Source of the DNA: Candidatus Saccharimonadota bacterium
GTDB lineage: Bacteria; Patescibacteriota; Saccharimonadia; Saccharimonadales; Saccharimonadaceae
Reading direction: 5' to 3'
Length of the DNA: 64,000 nucleotides
Assembly (NCBI GenBank): GCA_015999875.1
Contig: JAECRG010000001.1
Coordinates: forward strand, 421,330-485,329
Both the position numbers and the translations under genes were made by a program. Positions 31,303-37,790 of this stretch are shown piece after piece (the first letter of the stretch is position 1; each line of letters starts with the position of its first letter). Below the pieces are notes generated by a model, which did no database searches, had not been told where the DNA came from, and worked only from the letters and a program-made list of their open reading frames with translations.

Positions 31303-31378
31303 CGGGGTGTGGCGCAGTTGATAGCGCGCTCGGTTTGGGACCGAGAGGTCGAAGGTTTGAGTCCTTTCACCCCGACCA
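31303..31378 (+). tRNA. tRNA-Pro (anticodon UGG)
   Basis: CGGGGTG...CACCCCG acceptor pairing, anticodon stem CTCGG-TTTGGGA-CCGAG with TGG, encoded CCA; tacaat -10 about 15 nt upstream. Confidence 0.93.
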
Positions 31379-33178
31379 AGAGAAATTTTTGTCTAAATCC
31401 ACCATCATATCGTATGGTGGATTTAGCTTTATAACAGATACAGCGTTATCTCCAACTCGGAGGTTCAACACCACCTCCTGATACACTGCGTCTTCTTCAA
31501 TCAAATCTGTCGTATTTAACAGTGTTTCCAGATACGAATGCACAAGTTCAACAAATTGTTCACGGGTTGGCAGAGCATCGTTAAGACGAGCAAGCTCAGC
31601 CTTAAGGTTTTCTCGACTGGCAGTATGAACGTTAATTAGGTTTTGATACTCTTCAAGCTTGCCTTTGTGGTGTTGTTTGTATGCATCAGGATTAGATACT
31701 TGGAAGTTCTGGTACTTCGAGTACTCGTCACGGCTTCTGTTCAATTCAGTCTCTGCATCGCTTAACTTACGCTTTGCAATCTGTTTATCAACGGCAATCT
31801 TTTGCTCTAAGCGACCAACATAAACCTTATGAGCCTCTAGAACATTCTGCGTTAGGTTACGCAAAGTCCATTCAATATAAGAACTAATGTATTTCATTCT
31901 TACGCCCTTAGGCAGTTTCTTGCCATACTTCTCTATCGCCTTCGCATCGTCCTTACGAATACAATCTTCGTTGCGACAGTAAAAGCTTAGAAGCCAACTG
32001 CCAGCATTCTTACCCCTCACCACTTTAGTACGCTGAAATATCATTATCTTGTCGCAGTAATCACAGATAACTTTCTCTCGAAGCAAGCCAAAGTCCAGCC
32101 GTTTGCTAGCCGTCTTACGACCAACGAACTTTTCATTAAAGCTATAGGCAACATTCTGCGTTAGTGAGATAAACTCGTCAGCTGTAATGAGTGGTAAGAA
32201 ATCGTATATATCGTTTAGGTTCGCAACTCGTTCGCCGTACTTATAGACACCACAATAAAAGGGGTCTTTAAAGATAATACTCATAGCCTTTTTATCCATC
32301 TTGGCTACTGTTGGTTCGTCGTCCTTAAAGTTGCGGTAGCTAAAGTGAGCATCATTTAGGAAATCTGCAACTTCTTGGTTCGTTTTACCGTGCTGTAATC
32401 GCAGTACAACTGCTTGGCGTAGCAATTGCCAGTTGTGTCCATCTGGAATGAAATAGCCCGTCGTGGGGTCTGCATAGTATCCCTTCTTGGCAAGACCAAC
32501 GTACTTACCGTCTCTGATTGCTCCAGTAATACCCCTCGAAACATCGACACCAAGCTTGTCGGAATACTGTTTTGAGGTCGCAAACAATATACCCAAAAGC
32601 ATCTTTCCATTTGGCGTGTTGTCGAACTGATAGGTCTTAAAGTGCAAATCCTGTATCTGTTCAAGGTCAATCATTTCAATTATTTCGCCTGCTTCTTTCA
32701 TATTGCGAGACAAGCGGTCAGGCGACCAAGCTAGTAATCCGTGATACTTCTTGGTTTTAAATCCGTTTAATAAACCATCAAATATAGGTCGGTTACCTGA
32801 TGTTTTGGCAGAGGCACTTTCAATAAAAATATCTTCTTGTCTTACTACGATATTCAACTGTCTAGCCAGTAATAGGCATTCGGCTTTCTGGTCGTCTAAT
32901 GAGCGTACTTGGCGGTCTTCTGTATCGGTAGACTTACGAAGGTATATCGCATAACGTCGTCGCTCCTTCGGTAATATCCTTTGACTTCCTTCTGTTATCT
33001 TCAAGAAGTAATCGGTTAGCTCATTGGCATTGTGCTTACTCTCGGGTAAATCAAAGATGTCAGGATTGTCCTTTAGGCTATCTAAAACAACCTGCTCCGA
33101 CTTGAGTAGTTGTTCTTTAGTTAAAGGTGTCCGAACTGTTTTAGTACGAACTCGTGTTTTCTTTTCACTCCCTGCCAT
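31367..33178 (-). CDS. Large serine recombinase (integrase)
   Basis: Resolvase N-terminus RYAIYLRKSTDTEDRQVRSLDDQKAECL, zinc ribbon CDYCDKI...CRNEDC, coiled-coil; stop codon lies inside tRNA-Pro. Confidence 0.93.
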   Translation of the reverse strand: MAGSEKKTRVRTKTVRTPLTKEQLLKSEQVVLDSLKDNPDIFDLPESKHNANELTDYFLKITEGSQRILPKERRRYAIYLRKSTDTEDRQVRSLDDQKAECLLLARQLNIVVRQEDIFIESASAKTSGNRPIFDGLLNGFKTKKYHGLLAWSPDRLSRNMKEAGEIIEMIDLEQIQDLHFKTYQFDNTPNGKMLLGILFATSKQYSDKLGVDVSRGITGAIRDGKYVGLAKKGYYADPTTGYFIPDGHNWQLLRQAVVLRLQHGKTNQEVADFLNDAHFSYRNFKDDEPTVAKMDKKAMSIIFKDPFYCGVYKYGERVANLNDIYDFLPLITADEFISLTQNVAYSFNEKFVGRKTASKRLDFGLLREKVICDYCDKIMIFQRTKVVRGKNAGSWLLSFYCRNEDCIRKDDAKAIEKYGKKLPKGVRMKYISSYIEWTLRNLTQNVLEAHKVYVGRLEQKIAVDKQIAKRKLSDAETELNRSRDEYSKYQNFQVSNPDAYKQHHKGKLEEYQNLINVHTASRENLKAELARLNDALPTREQFVELVHSYLETLLNTTDLIEEDAVYQEVVLNLRVGDNAVSVIKLNPPYDMMVDLDKNFSWSG

Positions 33179-33266
33179 ATAGCTATTATATCCTTAAGGG
33201 TTGTAAAAGAGGTTCAACAGTTTTGTCGTATATCAAATATCCGCCAGTTTTTGTATAATAATTACT

Positions 33267-33405
33267 GTTCTAAGCTTTTAATCACAATAAGATAAACCCT
33301 CGGATTTAATCCGTGCGGTGTCCGCTTTAAAAATGGGCACCGTGTAAGCAGTAGGCGGAAGCTTATTGTGATAAAGGCTTAGAACACCTCACGGTGTCCT
33401 TTTTT
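33267..33405 (+). ncRNA. Candidate structured RNA with intrinsic terminator
   Basis: GTTCTAAGCTTTTAATCACAATAAG (33267-33291) pairs with CTTATTGTGATAAAGGCTTAGAAC (33362-33385): 24 bp, one bulge, one G.U. TATAAT at 33254-33259; ACACC-TCAC-GGTGT-CCTTTTTT after it. Confidence 0.7.
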
Positions 33406-33447
33406 ATTTGACACTCTTGAGACAACTAACCAAATAGGAGTGCCGAA

Positions 33448-33690
33448 ATGAAAAATCGTAAAACGTACAAAGTACTAACTATTATTGGGGCGTGCTTCCT
33501 ATTCGTAGGTATGCCAGTGAACCGCTTCTACCTAGGTCTTAGTGACGGCATCTTTGGACGGGTTATAACGCTCAACTTTTTCTTCATCGGTGCGTGGCTT
33601 GACCTGTTTTATATGGACAAGACCTTTGATGAAGCTATGGCAAAGCGGGGCTTTACGAATACAAATATTCGCAATCAACAAGGTCGATAG
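33448..33690 (+). CDS. TM2-domain-like small membrane protein
   Basis: NRFYLGLSDGIFGRVITLNFFFIGAWLDLFYM; upstream AGGAG. Confidence 0.6.
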   Translation: MKNRKTYKVLTIIGACFLFVGMPVNRFYLGLSDGIFGRVITLNFFFIGAWLDLFYMDKTFDEAMAKRGFTNTNIRNQQGR

Positions 33691-33692
33691 GG

Positions 33693-35597
33693 TTAACTAA
33701 CTGTTACGCCAAACTTTGCAAGAATTGCCTCAGCGAGACCGTTTAAGAGTGGGGCATCCTTTTTTAGCACCGCAGGTGTAGCCTTGTAGTTTTCGGCAAT
33801 CTTGTACTTAATTGTAGCGAGAATACCGTCTACTTTCTGCTTTTTACCTTTCGGGTCGATGATTTCATTCTTGAGATGAGCCTTTATTTGCTGGCAAAAA
33901 GGCAATGCAGTGTTTAGTGTAATGTTACCAAGACTGTTAGAAGAAAGGATACTGTTAGCCTGACTTTGAACGTAGGTAATTGGCAAGGTATCCTCGATTG
34001 AACCATCGCTAATCACACCCCCACTTAAATCACGAATGGTGAATACTTTTCCTGCAAAGTGGTTACTAATTTTCAAGATTTCAGGCTTTGCTTTTTGTCC
34101 AGCTTCATCGTCGTCAACGACAACCATTGGGCTGATATGGTGGAATGACAGAAGAGAGGCAGTAGCAACAATATTCGCACCCGTTCCATTAGTAATCAAT
34201 ACGTCGTGGTCTTTCTTGAGTAGTGAAAGTGCTTTTTGTAACAATATCTTATCCGTCTCACCCTCCACTAAGAGTTTATGCGGTGACAAGAAGTCTGAAA
34301 TGACATTAATTCCGAAAGCAGTCTGCAGAACCTCGTCATCATTAATATCTTCATCGGTCGTAATCTGATTAGCGGTCGTGAGATTGTTTTTGTCCTTAGT
34401 TAACAAATAGTGTCGCTCTTTAGTGTCACGGTCAAGCATAAAGTTCGAGTGCGTTGAGATAAACAAATAGTTGTGCTTACCAATCTCAAGTAGCTCCTCA
34501 AGCATAAACCTAACACCTGATGGGTGAAGATGAACTTCAGGCTCGTCAATTAAAATAAGGTGGTCTTTCGTATCACCAGAAGCACTGCTAATTGAAATGC
34601 TCAGAAGTAAAGATACGAATTGTTTGAAACCTTGACTGCGGTCTGCCATATCAAAATAATGGTCTTCGTCAGCGTTGTCTTGAACAGACACCGATGCGTT
34701 TAAGTCGCTTTCAACTTCAACATCAATACTGATTTTGTGCTCTTCCCATTTCGTATTTAAGTATGCAGTCGTCTTCTTGGATAGCATCTTCTTCAGATTT
34801 TTACGCTTATTGCTGTCTTTCTCGATTTCACCCACAACTTGCACGATTTTTTCTTTCGTCTCATATCCTGCAAGATAAAACATATTCTTGAGAGGTAAGT
34901 TACTTTCAGGTGCTTGAGCAAAGTCCTTTAGCTGAATTTTATCCTTAATCAGGTATTGCTCTTCGGACTTCCAAATGTCGACAGGAATGGAGATGTCTTC
35001 AACGAATTTCAAAAGTGCATCCCTAACGGTATCCTCAAAATTCTCCCTTGTTAGCGGTGCATACGCAGGCTTCTCTTCTTCGGTGATGTCGGCATTTGCC
35101 TTAATCACAATCTTTTCAACCGTTGAAGCGGCGACCGATAGACTTGCAGGGATGGTAACCGATGTCTTTACAAAACTATACTTCTTCAAGCCAGTTTTTT
35201 CATAATCATAAACGACGTCAACATCAAACGCTTCAGCAGTGCTACTGAGGTAAATCTCTTTTTCGATGTACTTAAGCTTGAAACCGTCAAGAAGCTCTTG
35301 TGGCATATCAACGTGACTGGCGATTACGTCCCGATAAGTATCGTTCTCATCTAACTCGAAGTGAAAATACACTTGCACGAACTGAGGTTCATTCTGCTGG
35401 TTCTTGATTTTAATAAAATCAACAGCACTCTTCGCCTCTTGAAGCTTTGGCGTCGCCATAGCATCAAGTACATTACTCTTACCGCTCTCGTTTTTGCCGA
35501 GCAGGATAGTAGTGTAACTATCACCATACTTCTTAATAGGAAAGCCAAGTTCGGCAATCGACTTGTAACCCTTTATTTTTATTTCGGTCAATTTCAT
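33693..35597 (-). CDS. OLD-family nuclease (SMC-like ATPase + TOPRIM)
   Basis: MKLTEIKIKGYKSI..LLGKNESGKSNVLDAM (Walker A), DRSQGFKQFVSLLLSIS signature, LILIDEPEVHLHPSG (Walker B), TOPRIM motifs LLVEGETDK and VVVDDDEAG. ATG at 35597 preferred (TATAAT 6 nt upstream); track start 35699 too long. Confidence 0.85.
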   Translation of the reverse strand: MKLTEIKIKGYKSIAELGFPIKKYGDSYTTILLGKNESGKSNVLDAMATPKLQEAKSAVDFIKIKNQQNEPQFVQVYFHFELDENDTYRDVIASHVDMPQELLDGFKLKYIEKEIYLSSTAEAFDVDVVYDYEKTGLKKYSFVKTSVTIPASLSVAASTVEKIVIKANADITEEEKPAYAPLTRENFEDTVRDALLKFVEDISIPVDIWKSEEQYLIKDKIQLKDFAQAPESNLPLKNMFYLAGYETKEKIVQVVGEIEKDSNKRKNLKKMLSKKTTAYLNTKWEEHKISIDVEVESDLNASVSVQDNADEDHYFDMADRSQGFKQFVSLLLSISISSASGDTKDHLILIDEPEVHLHPSGVRFMLEELLEIGKHNYLFISTHSNFMLDRDTKERHYLLTKDKNNLTTANQITTDEDINDDEVLQTAFGINVISDFLSPHKLLVEGETDKILLQKALSLLKKDHDVLITNGTGANIVATASLLSFHHISPMVVVDDDEAGQKAKPEILKISNHFAGKVFTIRDLSGGVISDGSIEDTLPITYVQSQANSILSSNSLGNITLNTALPFCQQIKAHLKNEIIDPKGKKQKVDGILATIKYKIAENYKATPAVLKKDAPLLNGLAEAILAKFGVTVS

Positions 35598-35859
35598 ACG
35601 CTGATTATAACACATAAAACAATTTATAAAATGCTTATGCCTATAAGTCAATCCTCGAAGACCCACGCCAGCTTGTTGGGCATTTCCCAACAAGGCCACC
35701 CCTGTTGGATAAATTTATTGTTGGGCTAAATCCAGACAAACATATTTTTCACCGTCCGCAATTATTTAAGTAGGTAGTGCGTTTACAGACTTTTTAAAAA
35801 ACAGTGCCCTACGGAGCAGGGGGGTACTCCATTGGGGCGTATTGACGTAAGATATAATT

Positions 35860-36714
35860 ATGGCAAAAAAAACAAAAGTTCTACACACGCCGACAGACCC
35901 ACAGGAGTTTCCTTTTAGGTTCTTGTTGCGACGTGGAGACGACTTCTATCGTTTCATAGACCTGCAAGTTGTGTCTGAGCCAAACGACAGACTATCCGTA
36001 TACCTCAAGCCTCCATTGGGCAATCTCTACCAGTCTAGGAAACCGACTAATAAACACTCGTTCGCTGGAGTATCTGGCTCTCAGTCCTTAACGCTTAATA
36101 ATGATGTTACGAAAGGGCAACCTATTTTCAACCCTTACGCAACTTGGCACGGCTCAGGTAAAGCTCACATAAATGGTTACGACACGAAAAGTCTAGAACA
36201 AGAACACGTATTAAATGACAGTGAAGCTATTTCGCTATCAAACATCGCCGTCCAGCCTCACATATTATTCACAGGGCTATTTCCGTTAAACACTCTTTCA
36301 TATATAAAAACTACCCCACCGCCGGATGATTATGACGGGAATTACGTCGAAGTATCCGATAAGCCTTACAGGAATAACGAACTTAGCAAGAAAGATACGA
36401 CAGCCCATTTCGTACTAGATATGTCTTCTCTTAGGGCTGGCTCGCTTGTTATGGACGTGATGGTTCATAATCGAGGCGTCGACTTTGACATCGAGAAGAA
36501 CCACCCGTACGTGGCAGATGGAGAAATGTACTTTGTTGCCCCTCCGTTTAAAATAATGCCCGATGACTCCCTATGCCCAGCAGTAACTGTCTTTTTCTAC
36601 CAGCCAGTTGGCGAAAGTGATGAAGGTCAACTAATTGAGAAACAGCCCTCAACAATATGGATAAGGTCTGTAGGCACTAAAGCGGAACAGTTCGTACAAT
36701 TCGAGCCATTATAG
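35860..36714 (+). CDS. Element-encoded hypothetical protein, 284 aa
   Basis: Soluble, beta-rich composition; no recognised family. Confidence 0.65.
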   Translation: MAKKTKVLHTPTDPQEFPFRFLLRRGDDFYRFIDLQVVSEPNDRLSVYLKPPLGNLYQSRKPTNKHSFAGVSGSQSLTLNNDVTKGQPIFNPYATWHGSGKAHINGYDTKSLEQEHVLNDSEAISLSNIAVQPHILFTGLFPLNTLSYIKTTPPPDDYDGNYVEVSDKPYRNNELSKKDTTAHFVLDMSSLRAGSLVMDVMVHNRGVDFDIEKNHPYVADGEMYFVAPPFKIMPDDSLCPAVTVFFYQPVGESDEGQLIEKQPSTIWIRSVGTKAEQFVQFEPL

Positions 36715-36876
36715 GCTAGTTTGCTCTTCATCTATAGTACGAATATACTTTTCGCCACTCGGGTCGCTTGAGACTTTATTATCCCAGTTTGAAGTATCGC
36801 TAGCGGATTGCTGGGCTGGCAACTCAACTGGCTCTTGGATAATCGCAACTTCTTTGTCTTGTTCTGTATCACTCAT
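36709..36876 (-). CDS. Element-encoded 55-aa acidic protein
   Basis: Read directly: MSDTEQDKEVAIIQEPVELPAQQSASDTSNWDNKVSSDPSGEKYIRTIDEEQTSL; TATAAT 8 nt before ATG. Below the ORF-track cutoff. Confidence 0.5.
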   Translation of the reverse strand: MSDTEQDKEVAIIQEPVELPAQQSASDTSNWDNKVSSDPSGEKYIRTIDEEQTSL

Positions 36877-36901
36877 TTGATTTAATTATATACGAATAGG
36901 T

Positions 36902-37534
36902 CTAAAACTTCGCAGACCTTGTTGTATAACTAGCTCCAGTTAATGTTTCGTACCCATCAATAAAATTGCCTTTTGAAATATCGTAGGATTTTAAGATTAC
37001 CTCACTACTGCTCTTATAGATTATTACCTTTTGTGTGTTTTCACCCTCGTTAGATACAGTACTGTAGATTACTTTACTCTCAGCGGAAACCTTACCCAGA
37101 TATAACGATATATTGTTCACGCTGTACACCAAAGAGACTAAAACAAATCCCCAAATACCTATCTTAAGTGTCCATTCAAGAAATTTAACCAGAACACCGA
37201 ATGGTCGTCTATGTCTTTTTACAAATTTAAATAACTTTTTAGACGGCTTCGTTTTCTCTGCCATCACAGAGCCGAGCCAGACGCTTAACCTTGTCAAAGC
37301 AACAACCACCAATACAACAACAGCAGACGCAATCAGTGTCAGAGGTAGCACATTCACATAATCATACACTTGTGGAATAAAGTTTATTTCAGGAAGAGTA
37401 ACACCGAAATGGCTGTAGTATCCTTCGGCAAATTTCGTAACGCTAAAATTTCCTATCACTACAAGACTAAAAATAAATAATGCCGTTAGCTCTAATGTAA
37501 ATAGTTTTTTGCTGTTCTCTTTGCTTCGTGCCAT
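36902..37534 (-). CDS. Element-encoded membrane protein, 210 aa
   Basis: Three TM helices plus C-terminal soluble region; no recognised family. Confidence 0.6.
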   Translation of the reverse strand: MARSKENSKKLFTLELTALFIFSLVVIGNFSVTKFAEGYYSHFGVTLPEINFIPQVYDYVNVLPLTLIASAVVVLVVVALTRLSVWLGSVMAEKTKPSKKLFKFVKRHRRPFGVLVKFLEWTLKIGIWGFVLVSLVYSVNNISLYLGKVSAESKVIYSTVSNEGENTQKVIIYKSSSEVILKSYDISKGNFIDGYETLTGASYTTRSAKF

Positions 37535-37753
37535 ATAGTATATCTTCTCGACAATCCCGTCTTAGTGCAAGCATATCCATATTCATTAAAAAAGGAATTC
37601 TATCTCAGAAATACTCTCTGGCTTTAGAATGTTCTCAACCGTCAGTTTCATTTTTCCAAGTCGGCTCTGAAATTGTTGATAATTTGCAAGCAGTCTATAT
37701 AGGCTCTCTAAGATTTCAGAGGTTCGATTACCGTTACCGCTCGTCGACCAAGA

Positions 37754-37790
37754 AAAAATCCGTCCATCTGGACGGTTTTTTTCTTGTTTA
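37754..37790. terminator. Bidirectional terminator at right end of the element
   Basis: AAAAAATCCGTCC-ATCT-GGACGGTTTTTTT. Confidence 0.85.

Follow-up and report, generated by a model that had tools for sequence, protein, structure and literature searches.

A large serine recombinase gene of Saccharimonadota that probably contains its own attachment site, and a conserved C-terminal tail found at the far end of the integrated element

Introduction

The closest described precedents for the locus studied here are phages Mx8 and Mx9 (Tojo et al. 1996; Magrini et al. 1999), for which, as far as the summary in PMC6070905 goes, attP (the attachment site of the element) lies in the integrase coding sequence, so that the integrated gene acquires another 3' end and its product ends in a different C-terminus. 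Archaeal suicidal integrases of the SSV type likewise have the att site in their own gene and a tRNA gene as target, and integration disrupts the gene (PMC8371274); such integrases have been described as exclusive to archaea (PMC8371274). Serine integrases, for their part, were described in 2014 as not known to target tRNA genes (PMC4383910). Here we analyse a 64,000-nucleotide stretch of a Candidatus Saccharimonadota bacterium (contig JAECRG010000001.1, positions 421,330 to 485,329; "the window" below, with coordinates counted from its first letter), in which a 6.4-kb element carrying a large serine recombinase gene is inserted in a tRNA-Pro(TGG) gene. A reading of the sequence alone had proposed that the excised circle encodes a longer recombinase than the integrated form, and had cited the SSV-type integrases as precedent. 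That comparison is apt in principle, but Mx8 comes closer, since its attP lies within the integrase gene and its C-terminus is swapped. The comparison with related genomes reported here makes it quite probable, as one joint judgement on the whole explanation, including the roles assigned to the long and short forms, that attP lies within the 3' end of the element's own large serine recombinase gene and that the element is integrative and targets tRNA genes.

Results

In the integrated element the recombinase ends in ...NFSWSG*, its last codons (TGG TCG GGG TGA) being supplied by the 3' end of tRNA-Pro(TGG), and the block CGACCAAGA recurs at 37745-37753. Joining the two blocks keeps the frame open and gives ...NFS WS followed by TSGNGNRTSEILESLYRLLANYQQFQSRLGKMKLTVENILKPESISEIEFLF and a stop, which adds 52 new residues for a total of 654; the predicted attP junction is TCTTGGTCG joined to ACGAGCGGTAACGG. 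That the recombinase ends in the tRNA, that the block repeats and that the join is open had all been claimed from the sequence, and sequence, coordinates and frame are as claimed. An open join of 52 codons has a chance of about 8%, (61/64)^52, and is weak by itself, so the claim rests on the comparison with relatives. The features concerned are these:

31303-31378, plus strand: tRNA-Pro(TGG), the attB target; its T arm is the B' half-site, with the motif at +19 from the core TGG
31367-33178, minus strand: large serine recombinase, short (integrated) form, 603 amino acids, with Pfam domains and conserved motifs
31373-31381, minus strand: core copy TCTTGGTCG on the recombinase (int) side, at the int/tRNA junction
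31394-31428, plus strand: hairpin CTAAATCCACCAT...ATGGTGGATTTAG encoded by the 3' end of int, which in the integrated state comes immediately after the tRNA
37586-37744, minus strand: 52-residue tail and stop codon, in the recombinase frame only in a circle or tandem array
37745-37753, minus strand: core copy TCTTGGTCG at the far end
37754-37782, plus strand: the tRNA's displaced original terminator, AAAAATCCGTCCATCTGGACGGTTTTTTT

Across 295 genomes of the same family as the window genome, nearly all of the closest recombinase genes terminate within the 3' end of a tRNA gene encoded on the other strand. We took as the close family the recombinases of at least 41% identity, which comprise 20 elements (that of the window and 19 others), and looked for tail homologues up to 20 kb on the other side of the recombinase. 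The sequence-only reading had named, as a result that would speak against it, homologues that consistently end at the short form; in fact, similar tails accompany the homologous recombinases and lie at the far ends of the respective elements. These tails are 2.8-11.3 kb away; each is preceded by a copy, 6-10 bp long, of the end of the tRNA, and most stand directly past a terminator-like hairpin. The frame is retained in 18 of the 20 elements (17 besides the window's), and the joined frames run 51-53 residues past the core and then stop. In the two exceptions, L050 and L101, the tails are off the frame pattern and the recombinase genes are broken. There are two frame classes at the core (WS; GR, GA, GG or GW), and the tail frame shifts in step with them, always matching in intact elements. 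The core shared by the relatives is the tRNA acceptor end plus CCA; the proposed 9-bp core does recur at both ends of the window's element, but is slightly long, the relatives having only 6-10 bp in common.

In a profile search, body and tail gave separate matches on the same contig and strand, with the tail upstream of the recombinase, in at least 13 genomes. The profile (A1) was built from 10 of the matched elements, so this support is partly by construction, and the independent support is provided by the four close-family tails found outside A1 by other routes (G282, G673, G613 and G534). For tail codons outside the attP arm, the pooled ratio of nonsynonymous to synonymous polymorphism (pN/pS) is 0.49 in the joined frame versus 1.08 and 1.61 in the other frames; the corresponding ratio of pairwise substitutions (dN/dS) is 0.07-0.49 for the tail in close pairs, and codon position 2 changes least. 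Judged by its sequence, the tail evolves as a protein, and in the joined frame only. It is predicted to form two helices arranged as a helical hairpin, with a predicted local distance difference test score (pLDDT) of 88-90 for the block. A conserved start codon was sought in or before the tail in the integrated state and none was found, for which reason a free-standing tail gene was rejected. Weak matches to flagellar and AfsS families, for the tail and a small open reading frame (ORF), were far below cut-off and were rejected. Tail matches also occur without a body match of the same profile (G065:C25, G117:C2, G085:C21, G026:C15, G071:C1:864588 and G035:C1:720987); these may be what is left of former elements, or may belong to elements whose recombinase body is of a different kind.

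Tandem arrays and empty sites give further views of the same arrangement. Genome G709 has two related elements arranged as a tandem pair at a single tRNA-Pro. The recombinase gene of the inner element is intact, codes for 592 residues and runs from its body through the core into its neighbour's tail; the outer one ends in the tRNA. This is the structure expected when a second element integrates at the int/tRNA junction. A second, degraded body-tail junction occurs in G013. The sequence-only reading would also have been refuted if no related genome had an excised junction or an empty tRNA-Pro site. Body and tail are physically joined in the arrays just described, and the empty site is present in G079 and G100, two sister genomes belonging to the window genome's genus, where the same tRNA-Pro is followed directly by its own terminator. 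The same LysM/CHAP gene lies about 0.9 kb from tRNA-Pro in the empty-site genomes versus 6.7 kb in the window, and the window's counterpart of the empty-site terminator stands beyond the right end of the element. Taken together, conserved in-frame tails, array junctions and empty sites strongly support the proposal of a circle encoding a recombinase of about 654 residues and an integrated form encoding a 603-residue variant.

Another tRNA-Pro locus, L155 (G035:C1:869600-877200), holds a different insert of about 6 kb; there tRNA-Pro is followed by a terminator and, past it, by a degenerate tRNA-Pro-like end in inverted orientation (TGGTCGG...GGCTCAAATCTTCGAC).

The recombinase itself has the parts of a large serine recombinase. 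It matches the Resolvase domain (PF00239) at residues 77-226 with an E value of 8.5e-19 and the Recombinase domain (PF07508) at residues 251-338, above cut-off; it carries the catalytic motif YAIYLRKS, whose serine is invariant across the alignment of recombinases, as are the zinc-ribbon cysteines C372, C375, C401 and C406. Long helices are predicted with moderate confidence at residues 446-490 and 507-532, and solved relatives in the Recombinase/Resolvase region include a conjugative transposon recombinase and the TP901-1 integrase. All of the catalytic, recombinase, zinc-ribbon and coiled-coil parts are retained in the short form. The window's genome has one copy of this recombinase and one distant, fragment-level match.

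The published rule for serine integrases is that the motif read by the zinc domain sits closer to the centre in attB than it does in attP, by 5 bp (PMC3783163). The elements studied here have the same spacing: counted from the core TGG, the P' arm has a motif of the (C/T)GAAC type beginning at +24, and the T-arm motif of the tRNA begins at +19. In the window the P' motif is CGAACC at +24, and the first ten or so tail codons double as the P' arm. The att sites thus combine a short core (6-10 bp in the close family) with the 5-bp shift of the motif between attP and attB. The T arm is near-universal among tRNAs, which would explain how one clade can use many tRNA genes. The hairpin in the int 3' end stands on the tRNA's strand and is more stable than synonymous-codon controls in most relatives; we infer that it replaces the displaced terminator of the tRNA and forms part of the P arm.

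A wider set of 380 genomes covered the phylum (Patescibacteria). Among the best recombinase matches with a readable C-terminus (L156-L176), 19 of 21 end inside a tRNA gene, and the other two are a tandem copy and a tmRNA-like case (transfer-messenger RNA). The tRNA targets of the clade are Pro, Val, Leu, Gln, Gly, Lys, Met, Ser, Ala, Asp, Glu and Ile. Distant relatives (about 30% identity) across the phylum have the same arrangement, at tRNA-Gly, Leu, Gln, Met, Ser and further tRNA genes, with other tail sequences, and far-end tails were found for several of the phylum-wide best matches. Seven tRNA-Gly elements have the common tail GA..QNLLKLF...IY, which, with its separate profile matches, is the better support for the distant families. 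Far ends were sought and not found for L034, L040, L045, L052, L053, L092 and L097, some of which are near contig ends; the far-end scan was anchored on TGG, and tRNAs without an encoded CCA (L186, L189-L192) were outside its reach.

Three loci of the clade have ends of other kinds. At L188 (G533:C5) the recombinase end resembles the 3' end of a tmRNA gene (GGAGCTGGCGGGAGTCGAACCCGCGTCC), which is the probable target; ARAGORN was run in tRNA mode only. L095 (G051) has three successive tail-like ends before one recombinase, with oriented distances from the int core of 7853, 11703 and 12320 bp; it looks as though a number of elements had accumulated at a single tRNA-Gly and then lost their recombinase bodies. 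At L098 (G121) the recombinase has no adjacent tRNA and a short, unlike C-terminal ending, LGAPSLTYFKRQPLMLKKIID, from integration elsewhere or from a deletion.

Between recombinase and tail, the window's element carries the following genes:

33448-33690, plus strand: small membrane protein, 80 amino acids (cargo)
33696-35606, minus strand: OLD-like ATPase/TOPRIM protein (cargo)
35860-36714, plus strand: 284-residue protein without a family match (cargo)
36709-36876, minus strand: acidic protein, 55 amino acids, of the type MS..PPQQSA.DTSNWDNKVS.DP.GEKYI
36902-37534, minus strand: predicted membrane protein, 210 amino acids, the first gene past the tail

The OLD-like gene matches the Old, AriA, PtuA and GajA models and is probably an anti-phage defence gene, which may make the element a small defence island. 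A conserved acidic ORF of 48-66 residues is present in about ten related elements and in most starts within about 25 bp of the tail stop; in the window the gene for the 210-residue membrane protein separates the two. This small ORF is a candidate accessory or directionality factor. The segment at 33230-33420, between the recombinase and the 80-residue ORF, looks structured, with inverted repeats and a terminator, and has no Rfam match. Rfam matches to Leu_leader and RNAI near the right end were rejected, being below the gathering score and overlapping the terminator hairpin.

Discussion

We propose that in the circle the gene would read through attP into the 52-residue helical tail and yield the 654-residue long form. 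Crossover in the tRNA acceptor/CCA end would part body from tail, leaving after integration a 603-residue body that ends in the antisense strand of the tRNA and a tail stranded beyond the displaced terminator; the two would be rejoined by excision, or by a second element integrating beside the first. A newly entered circle can make only the long form, which must then be the form that performs attP x attB, and a single integrated copy can make only the short form, which would be either excision-biased or disabled. We infer on these grounds that the long form integrates, and form-specific tails would in this way bias integration versus excision, as the sequence-only reading had suggested. The short form may excise, possibly helped by a partner such as the product of the small acidic ORF beside the tail. 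The tail would most likely act on the coiled-coil/zinc-domain region, which sets direction in serine integrases, so that the enzyme would read its integration state from its own reading frame.

Direction in serine integrases is normally ascribed to a separate factor. Engineered C-terminal fusions of a recombination directionality factor (RDF) alter the directionality of serine integrases (PMC5737554), and we considered whether the tail is a fused RDF. This was judged unlikely, because the engineered fusions favour attL x attR, whereas the tail is there at the stage at which integration has to take place. In phage Mx8, according to the portion of that work summarised in PMC6070905, the swapped C-terminus modified integrase activity without abolishing it and changed its specificity.

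Several points weigh against this proposal. The excised circle and the attP junction are predicted from the integrated DNA, and the long form did not turn up in scans of viral contigs, of phages or of plasmids. With a mean pLDDT of 58.9 the structure predicted for the short form is poor, for which reason contact of the tail with the coiled coil is a guess, and the excision competence of the short form is a matter of argument. Many tails of the distant families come from a scoring scan in which an open frame was a requirement, which makes each distant case weaker than a close-family case.

The alternative that survives best is that the tail is needed for activity, so that integration inactivates the recombinase and excision needs a long form from a neighbour or a new arrival. 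Conservation of the tail as protein and the single long form kept intact in a tandem array would both fit, and archaeal suicidal integrases have been described as being excised by exogenous related integrases (PMC8371274). However, integration removes only about 52 C-terminal residues and leaves the catalytic, recombinase, zinc-ribbon and coiled-coil parts intact, and the swapped form of Mx8 stays active in the account summarised in PMC6070905; we regard such inactivation as a serious but unlikely possibility, and moderately favour a state-dependent switch over a pure latch. It is a good deal less probable that the tail is a degradation signal that keeps the recombinase low in the circle and is lost upon integration. 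Similar logic is known for a phage repressor (PMC9934374), and the tails do end in hydrophobic residues (FLF, FLV, FVM, IIY, YKL), but none of those read ends in AA as ssrA-like tags do, and conservation covers the whole helical segment and not just its last residues. That attP merely falls in the gene and the tail is a harmless ending would agree with short serine-integrase att sites, which can fall anywhere, and with core motifs of the recombinase that are all upstream of the att core; we find this very improbable in view of purifying selection in one frame only, near-constant tail length with matched frames, conserved helices, and tails in very different recombinase clades. An accidental open join into a non-coding tail, for which the chance of about 8% that 52 codons stay open would speak, is refuted by the homologous in-frame tails of 17 other close-family elements and can be set aside.

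The preferred state-dependent switch can be stated for the whole phylum: a Patescibacteria clade of serine integrases would have a direction switch encoded in cis, in which the circle makes an integrating enzyme and the chromosome an excising or silenced one, by means of an att site between the body and a conserved regulatory tail, and would read the near-universal T-arm motif, hence the many tRNA genes. We hold this wide statement to be evenly balanced. If true, it would provide a natural module at the C-terminus, acquired in the circle and given up upon integration, and with it a one-protein switch whose two forms could be compared side by side. The far-end tail is a practical marker for bounding integrated elements in Patescibacteria, where ordinary repeat searches fail on such short att cores. 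Possible vector sites are suggested by the empty tRNA sites.

The integrase of Mx8 is of the tyrosine type. As in Mx8, attP lies in the integrase gene and the integrated form has a new C-terminus, but Mx8 is a single phage system, whereas here a large serine recombinase (Pfam) is carried by small islands and recurs across a phylum in many kinds of tRNA gene and a probable tmRNA gene; this difference in recombinase family rests on the Pfam assignment here and not on direct alignment to Mx8 Int. SSV-type integrases differ in being tyrosine recombinases whose gene is divided into two large inactive pieces, int(N) and int(C), whereas here a serine recombinase is parted from about 52 residues. For the phage serine integrase systems A118/LI, phiC31 and Bxb1, we know of no description of attP inside int. 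They resemble the present recombinases in their Resolvase and Recombinase domains, zinc ribbon, short core and 5-bp shift (PMC3783163, PMC5737554). In the integration-dependent immunity of mycobacteriophages (Broussard et al. 2013), as far as it is described in PMC9934374, attP likewise lies in a regulatory gene, integration changes the C-terminus, and tandem prophages recombine the halves; there, however, the switched gene is a repressor and the lost piece an ssrA-like degradation tag, whereas here it is the recombinase, with tails that lack the AA end.

An attP within the integrase gene that swaps its C-terminus is thus already known from Mx8, as are gene-splitting integrases from archaea (PMC8371274). 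New with respect to the literature searched, largely without subscription papers, so that an earlier report is possible, is the combination of a serine recombinase, tRNA genes as targets, a bacterial phylum and a conserved tail. The finding contradicts the statement by which tRNA genes are no known target of serine integrases (PMC4383910). It also contradicts the restriction to archaea of recombinases that disrupt their own gene (PMC8371274), a claim already qualified by the partial swap of Mx8.

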